Source: a virus. From it: a stretch of 30,033 bases of DNA. This document shows positions 28,890 to 30,033 of the stretch, piece after piece. The stretch spans positions 1-30,033 of IMG/VR virus record IMGVR_UViG_3300022937_000105. One strand, 5' to 3'. The notes beneath the pieces are model-generated. The model was not told the origin of the DNA, did not search any database, and was given only the letters and a program-made list of their open reading frames with translations. Position 1 is the first letter of the stretch, and each line of letters begins with the position of its first letter. A program made the position numbers and the translations under genes.

Positions 28890-29036
28890 ATGGGCAAAGA
28901 CACCAAAGAATGGCATTGCGCCGTCTGCGGGCAACGCCTCACAACCCACCGCAAAATCATCGGCAAACCAGTCCACACCTGCGCGGCACGACCGGGGAAA
29001 CGCCGATGGGAACTTGATGAGGTGACCCATGTCTAA
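28890..29036 (+). CDS. 48-aa zinc-finger protein
   Basis: ATG 28890 is four bases after the SSB stop; the ORF overlaps the next gene by eight bases. MGKDTKEWHCAVCGQRL, TTHRKIIGKPVHTCAARPG, KRRWELDEVTHV contains CxxC (C10, C13) with H20, H29 and C31 as further ligands, followed by a basic RPGKRRW. This looks like a small treble-clef or zinc-finger domain that could bind DNA. Its place between SSB and a junction nuclease suggests a role in recombination. Confidence 0.62.
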   Translation: MGKDTKEWHCAVCGQRLTTHRKIIGKPVHTCAARPGKRRWELDEVTHV

Positions 29037-29373
29037 GAACAAGGCCAAAGGCACAGCGTTTGAAACAGACATCGTCCGTTACCTGCGCGAGTTCGGGTTC
29101 CCGTATGCGGAACGTCGTGCCCTCTCGGGAGTCCACGATTTGGGTGACATCACGGGCACACCAGGACTCGTCTGGGAGTGCAAGAACCATCAGACCCTGA
29201 AACTGTCTGAATGGCTCACCGAAACAGAAGTGGAACGCTTCAACGCAGGAGCCGACTACGGGATACTTGTGGCGAAACGGCGTGGTAAAAGCTACCCCGG
29301 CGAACAGTATGCGATAATGACACTCAGTTCATTAGTCCAACTGTTAGTCGAGGCCGGCTATGGCGTACCGTGA
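29029..29373 (+). CDS. Holliday-junction-resolvase-like PD-(D/E)xK nuclease
   Basis: A 114-aa product. KGTAFETDIVRYLREFG (E12), AERRALSGVHDLGDI (D40) and GLVWECKNHQTLKLSEWL (E50, K52) give the E-D-ExK order of archaeal-Hjc/RecB-like small nucleases. In phages these cleave branched recombination or replication intermediates before packaging. The fold length is normal. RBS GAGGTGA lies just before ATG 29029. It ends in an unusual junction: its last 14 bases also hold the starts of two further ORFs in the other two frames (29360 and 29370). Confidence 0.8.
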   Translation: MSKNKAKGTAFETDIVRYLREFGFPYAERRALSGVHDLGDITGTPGLVWECKNHQTLKLSEWLTETEVERFNAGADYGILVAKRRGKSYPGEQYAIMTLSSLVQLLVEAGYGVP

Positions 29374-29581
29374 AACCTATTACCCTGCTGGTGAGCATGG
29401 TCTCCATGTTTACCGTGGGTTGCGGTCAGGCTACGACGATCCCCTCATCGGCACCTGTGTGGACGCTCCCCGCGACGGAAGCAACTACGACTACCTCTGC
29501 CCCACCTGTGGACGTTACAAACCCTGTAAACATCATTGCCCCAAGTGCGGTAGAAGACTCCCCTGCGTCTTCCACAACTAG
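29360..29581 (+). CDS. 73-aa double-zinc-knuckle protein, overprinted with the lipoprotein gene
   Basis: ATG 29360 has GAGG at 29350-29353 at good spacing. The N-terminus YRETYYPAGEHGLHVYRGLR, then DPLIGTCVDAPRDGSNYDYL, is followed by CPTCGRYKPCKHHCPKCGRR + LPCVFHN: three CxxC/CxC-type clusters with His, enough for one or two zinc ions. Such a dense, well-spaced ligand set is unlikely in a random frame. It shares 212 bases (29370-29581) with the start of the lipoprotein gene in another frame. Function unknown; nucleic-acid binding or a ribbon subunit is most likely. Confidence 0.58.
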   Translation: MAYRETYYPAGEHGLHVYRGLRSGYDDPLIGTCVDAPRDGSNYDYLCPTCGRYKPCKHHCPKCGRRLPCVFHN

Positions 29582-29933
29582 CACCACAACGATTCCCGGT
29601 ATCGACAATGCGCGATACCCGAGGCTACTCACCCTCGCGCACAGCATCGGCTGGCCTGCCGAATGGCTCCCCACCCTCGACACCATCATCCACGGCGAAT
29701 CCCGAGGCATCGCCGGACTCAACGGGTCAGGCGGGCTAGGCATCACCCAAGTCGAATGGATCATCTGGGGTGACCTCGCCAACGAACTCGGCCACAGCCG
29801 TGCCGACGTGCGCGACAACAACGCAGCCAATTTGGAGGTGGCACTCGCCATCGCCTACATTGCGTTAGACCATTACGACCATTGGTGCCAACCCTGGTAC
29901 CCATCACTTGGAAACTACAGGAACTACTGTTGA
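29370..29933 (+). CDS. Lysozyme/SLT-like lipoprotein
   Basis: A 187-aa product starting at GTG 29370, overlapping the resolvase stop as GTGA. Residues 1-18 look like a lipoprotein signal (MKPITLLVSMVSMFTVGC; Cys18, with Thr at -3 instead of the usual Leu). Residues ~20-80 are a Thr/Ser/Pro linker typical of secreted actinobacterial proteins. Residues ~83-187 are lysozyme/transglycosylase-like: SIGWPAEWLPTLDTIIHGES (E110 as candidate acid), GSGGLGITQVEWIIWG, DNNAANLEVALAIAYI, then WCQPWYP and a terminal Cys. It would be anchored outside the cell, so roles in superinfection exclusion or wall modification are possible. The linker shares DNA with the zinc-ribbon frame. The gene is certain in its 3' half; the start is less so. 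Confidence 0.7.
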   Translation: MKPITLLVSMVSMFTVGCGQATTIPSSAPVWTLPATEATTTTSAPPVDVTNPVNIIAPSAVEDSPASSTTSTTTIPGIDNARYPRLLTLAHSIGWPAEWLPTLDTIIHGESRGIAGLNGSGGLGITQVEWIIWGDLANELGHSRADVRDNNAANLEVALAIAYIALDHYDHWCQPWYPSLGNYRNYC

Positions 29934-30033
29934 ACGAACATCAAGTAACTCTGCCCTCTGCCCCTGAATACGACGAAAAAAATCAAGAGTGGCGAACCCG
30001 TGCAGCTTGCAAAGGTATGGACACCGAACTGTG
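29930..30033 (+). CDS. WhiB-family transcriptional regulator, N-terminal part (runs off window)
   Basis: The frame starts at TTG 29930, overlapping the lipoprotein stop (TTGA), and is open to the right edge: MNEHQVTLPSAPEYDEKNQE, then WRTRAACKGMDTEL. WxxxAACxGxDxEL is the N-terminal signature of WhiB proteins, with the first of four iron-sulfur cysteines (Cys27). The others lie beyond the window. WhiB regulators are confined to Actinobacteria and their phages, where they bind the main sigma factor and can redirect host transcription. This is the best single marker for the host. Confidence 0.85.
   Translation, partial: MNEHQVTLPSAPEYDEKNQEWRTRAACKGMDTEL

Follow-up and report, generated by a model that had tools for sequence, protein, structure and literature searches.

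By the window we mean the whole 30,033-base IMG/VR virus record that was analysed. A recombination module made up of genes for an annealing protein, an SSB, a 48-aa Cys-containing ORF and a RusA-like resolvase stands at the right end of the window, and the overlap locus described here follows directly (Table 1). The match of the resolvase to the Pfam family PDDEXK_15 is weak and below the cut-off. The 48-aa ORF (28890-29036, WHCAVCGQRLTTHR) ends inside the start of the resolvase gene, and a counterpart of it is present even in the distant relative L015. Positions 29934-30033 of the window belong to a WhiB-like gene within which the record ends; a close relative carries a tandem pair of WhiB genes downstream, along with a gene for a C5 DNA methylase. 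WhiB is an actinobacterial family, and its presence in 19 of the 19 related records tested points to actinobacterial hosts, so the hosts are probably actinobacteria.

The end of the resolvase gene, the ATG of a Cys-rich ORF and the GTG start of a lysozyme-like gene, which overlaps the resolvase stop as GTGA, fall together in three different frames, as an earlier note on this DNA had it; the coordinates given there hold, but coding in all three frames is confined to 4 nt (29370-29373), and 29360-29369 is double coding. The Cys-rich ORF and the lysozyme-like gene then share 212 nt (29370-29581) in different frames. The clade to which the window belongs is represented by seven contigs that form four full haplotypes, and in addition by one partial haplotype (L016), and both frames are open in all of these. 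A same-strand overlap of this length is indeed exceptional here, since no other pair of neighbours shares more than about 20 nt (as judged from the ORF list, with likely starts picked by eye). By direct reading no Shine-Dalgarno sequence lies at a usual distance from GTG 29370, a promoter and terminator scan found nothing, and Rfam gave no match.

Table 1. Features of the overlap locus, in window coordinates
Feature	Position	Strand	Basis or remark
RusA-like Holliday junction resolvase gene (114 aa)	29029..29373	+	phrog_244, E 7.3e-31; TGA stop 29371-29373
Invariant 79-nt block, resolvase 3' end	29287..29365	+	0 variable sites in five haplotypes
Shine-Dalgarno-like GAGG for the ribbon ORF	29350..29353	+	Direct reading; 6-nt spacing to ATG 29360
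Cys-rich putative zinc-ribbon ORF (73 aa, 7 Cys), probable overprinted gene	29360..29581	+	ORF list, comparison of relatives
Zinc-ribbon part, C47-x2-C50-x5-C56-x3-C60-x2-C63-x5-C69	29498..29566	+	All Cys invariant in window clade
Lysozyme-like protein (187 aa), predicted to be secreted, lipid anchor putative	29370..29933	+	GTG start
Signal peptide with lipobox-like TVGC (Cys18)	29370..29423	+	Direct reading
Thr/Ser/Pro linker, mostly double coding	29424..29609	+	30-relative alignment; low structure confidence, residues 1-71
Predicted lysozyme-fold domain	29610..29930	+	EtgA profile match, structure alignment; likely catalytic Glu110 at 29697-29699

As judged from profile and model comparisons, the protein of the 29370 frame is most probably an exported enzyme of lysozyme fold that hydrolyses the cell wall. 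A profile built from 30 relatives matched EtgA in the PDB (E 2.6e-7), and the predicted model, in which residues 81-187 form a high-confidence domain and most of residues 81-180 have a pLDDT above 90, aligns with lysozyme 2fbd (VIA-align of residues 81-186; Z 12.6, rmsd 2.2, 96 residues). The triplet E110-S111-R112 is invariant in the 30 sequences. The window protein thereby has the fold, the EtgA profile match and the invariant Glu-Ser in common with the EtgA/SLT and C-type lysozyme superfamily; it differs in having its own signal peptide and linker and in lying below Pfam detection, since it matched no Pfam family, SLT included (SLT is matched by 13 of the 30 relatives, best E 1.4e-5). The earlier note had called this protein a lipoprotein with a signal peptide, and the export signal is there on direct reading. 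The lipobox region of the window clade is FTVGC, with Thr at -3 and an invariant Cys18, and that of the L027 group is LLAGC, but there is no Cys at this place in L057 or L046, and lipid anchoring is consequently uncertain. A tblastn search of the phage collection with both overlap proteins gave no match, and the genome collection contained no relative of either.

The product of the 29360 frame contains two CPxCG knuckles, C47-P-T-C50-G and C60-P-K-C63-G, that are unchanged throughout the window clade. Their C-x2-C-x9-C-x2-C spacing is that of bL32-type and other short zinc ribbons, from which the window ORF differs by its extra Cys33, Cys56 and Cys69 and by its having no significant family match: the best PDB match is bL32 at a non-significant E of 0.21, Zn_ribbon_6 reaches 14 bits against a cut-off of 25, and all other Pfam families likewise stay below theirs. 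AlphaFold gave no confident model of the ORF (pLDDT 38), and direct reading of the 73 residues found no hydrophobic helix.

The length of an open frame was rejected as evidence for a gene, for such frames are frequent by chance: 23% of synonymous recodings of the lysozyme-like protein keep the 73 codons open, and 60-136 open codons occur at several homologous loci that lack the ribbon. The Cys-rich ORF might be open across the Thr/Ser/Pro linker by chance and not be a gene, its Cys codons and their conservation being by-products, and that only four full haplotypes are at hand favours such a reading as well. The pattern of change within the window clade argues against it. All seven Cys are kept in every sequence of the clade (in L016 over its available length), and at least seven Cys appear in just 0.8% of the synonymous recodings. 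The ribbon part (29489-29578) has nine variable sites, seven of which are silent in the ribbon frame, where a silent share of 20-27% is expected (P about 0.0003-0.004 for at least 7 of 9). Six of these seven alter the linker, and the seventh (29552) is silent in both frames; of the two others, 29558 changes both proteins, and 29531 alters the ribbon and is linker-silent once its neighbour 29530 has changed. When evolution under the lysozyme-like frame only was simulated with the observed number of changes under nine settings, the absence of a stop, the seven Cys and no more than two ribbon-part changes occurred jointly in 0-0.17% of runs. Variable sites are distributed over the three codon positions of the lysozyme-like frame as 6/9/9 in the overlap versus 9/5/27 downstream (Fisher P 0.04 and 0.03), so that the third-position excess of that frame is lost within the overlap. 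Codons 1-43, the N-terminal half of the ribbon ORF, show no excess of silent changes. These comparisons support purifying selection on the ribbon frame, and place it in the ribbon part.

A second lineage, L056/L057, has a resolvase about 71% identical to that of the window and, in the same place and phase, an open 65-codon frame with YLCTICGRTKPCRRH where the window has YLCPTCGRYKPCKHH. The core YLCxxCGRxKPCxxH is kept, and the frame scores 67 against the window ORF; the 23 other homologous loci score at most 41, and only 1 of 4000 recodings that preserve the L057 lysozyme-like protein reached 67. This core is unexplained by the lysozyme-like sequence, and together with the silent bias, the simulation and the Cys count it makes a chance ORF quite improbable. 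The L057 protein is without the second CPxCG pair, and relative to bL32-type ribbons it has the first pair and C-x2-H only; its metal site would then be C-x2-C-x5-C-x2-H, with ligands differing from those of the window protein.

The lysozyme-like gene follows the resolvase gene in many related phage loci, and the ribbon ORF is confined to the window clade and L056/L057. In L015/L046, L040, L053, L048 and others the lysozyme-like gene is kept and the ribbon frame is interrupted by stops, and the linkers of ribbon-free loci are largely poly-Thr. Stops of this kind had been named as what would speak against the gene; they do occur, but in sister clades only and never in the window clade, so they date the ribbon ORF rather than refute it. 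The suggestion that ribbon homologues be sought outside the overlap was followed in the phage collection, the genome collection and 16 related virus records without the overlap, and none was found. A search of viral contigs with the pattern CxxCGRxKPC gave 52 matches, mostly in unrelated frames, and only the loci already known belong to the family. We also note open frames of 120-136 codons in L027, L035 and L037 that overlap the lysozyme-like gene at its start and share the phase of the ribbon ORF.

In a concatenated FastTree tree the window clade and L057 are joined with support 0.97, which is compatible with one origin of the ribbon; single-gene IQ-TREE analyses gave a single origin in 65% of bootstraps for the enzyme domain and 16% for the resolvase. 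The earlier note had left open whether the ribbon was overprinted on the linker or the reverse. The wide occurrence of the lysozyme-like gene, the poly-Thr linkers whose ribbon frame is broken, the lack of a ribbon elsewhere in the collections searched and the FastTree grouping all favour the former with fair confidence, and on these comparisons the ribbon most likely arose by overprinting of a poly-Thr linker. The reverse order, with an ancestral ribbon gene that the sister clades lost and a window-clade linker shaped around this old gene, appears rather unlikely. It would agree with the resolvase tree, in which by itself the two lineages that bear the ribbon do not group, and with codon usage, which is not unusual in the ribbon frame (r 0.47 versus the genome, compared with 0.35 for the linker frame) and does not mark the ribbon as younger; it needs several independent losses, however, for all other clades examined have the lysozyme-like gene but no ribbon.

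Immediately upstream, the invariant block at the 3' end of the resolvase gene is the longest variation-free stretch in the 3.5 kb compared (longest invariant run, P 0.03 over 3.5 kb). None of the last 26 informative resolvase codons varies synonymously versus 39 of 78 upstream (P 7e-7, for a region chosen post hoc). The block folds into a hairpin (29290-29359) that includes the GAGG and ends just before the ribbon ATG, and just 1.7% of the synonymous recodings, and 0.4% when codons were permuted, were at least as stable. A similar hairpin was not found in L057, L046, L053, L040 or L027, and there was no covariation, so that 29287-29365 is no more than a candidate RNA or translational control element, on moderate evidence.

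The ribbon-free sister loci have a nucleotide feature of their own in the same linker, an exactly conserved 26-nt string (CAGACCCCCCTAGATTGCGTTCTAAG) present in 21 contigs (the locus L046:2849-3382 and its homologues in L053, L048, L062, L040, L032, L047, L058, L063 and others). The nine conserved codons at this string never vary, and the enzyme domain varies freely. Within the string, C CCC CCT precedes a TAG of the -1 frame, an arrangement that resembles a frameshift site. Just upstream of it a putative small stem, GAGGT...ACCTC, can be seen by eye in L046 and L053, and L063 has GTGGT...ACCAC instead, a compensatory-looking change, also by eye. A MAFFT alignment that equated the knuckle DNA with this element was set aside; in the phase of the lysozyme-like protein the element corresponds to SDPPIWTL of L057, which lies further upstream.

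The upstream block with its hairpin and the strictly conserved string of the sister clades both lend something to the idea that the constraint on the overlap acts at the nucleotide level, through an RNA or DNA element, and that the protection of the ribbon frame is only apparent. We regard this as very improbable: the ribbon part changes often, and it does so at the wobble position of the ribbon frame, a codon signature that a nucleotide element would not be expected to leave, and the invariant block lies almost entirely upstream of the ORF, with 6 nt inside it.

Selection on the ribbon frame, a core kept in two lineages, a linker frame free to change and a restricted distribution together make it quite likely, in our judgement, that the 29360 ORF is a real, selected and lineage-restricted gene, overprinted where an older gene, for a secreted muralytic protein of lysozyme fold, encodes its signal peptide and disordered linker. 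We would expect one transcript to span the resolvase, the ribbon and lysozyme-like genes and the WhiB genes. Ribosomes would start the ribbon at ATG 29360, served by the GAGG that lies within the resolvase gene; the lysozyme-like protein would start at GTG 29370 by termination-reinitiation at the GTGA of the resolvase stop. Because these starts lie 10 nt from each other, two ribosomes could not use them at once, and the ratio of the products would be set locally, possibly under the control of the 29290-29359 hairpin. The ribbon protein would fold around one zinc ion held by CPxCG-x8-CPxCG, and because its gene sits in a recombination and regulator module (annealing protein, SSB, resolvase, WhiB), it may act in the cytoplasm on nucleic acid or on a host protein. 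More tentatively, and with somewhat less than an even chance in our estimation, the zinc-ribbon protein may have been born de novo when a poly-Thr linker lost its out-of-frame stops and gained Cys codons, and the linker of this one gene may repeatedly carry a second layer of information, one lineage encoding a protein there and the sister lineage keeping a strictly conserved nucleotide element.

Overlapping genes of this kind are known, and the present pair is, at the level of sequence comparison, a new and well-supported case. In the Rz/Rz1 spanin of phage lambda, a lipoprotein gene and another gene occupy the same DNA in different frames. The likeness is that a putative phage lipoprotein gene and a second gene in another frame share DNA; here, however, the place of the inner-membrane spanin is taken by a partner that is Cys-rich, presumably cytoplasmic and without a transmembrane helix, the protein predicted to be exported is an apparent enzyme of lysozyme fold, and the hosts are probably actinobacteria. 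The locus also shares with viral overprinted genes at large (PMC8227390) the two frames on one strand, the restricted younger frame and the disorder in one partner that relieves constraint. For most proteins of de novo origin a bias toward disorder is reported (PMC8227390); at this locus it is the older frame that encodes the disordered linker and the younger one that is Cys-rich and presumably ordered. The pair would thus present a clear asymmetry between a tolerant old linker frame and a constrained young frame whose Cys-rich module is apparently ordered. A gene of this sort would probably be dropped by ordinary gene callers, and with ribbon-free relatives at hand, the birth of a small metal-binding protein would be open to stepwise study.
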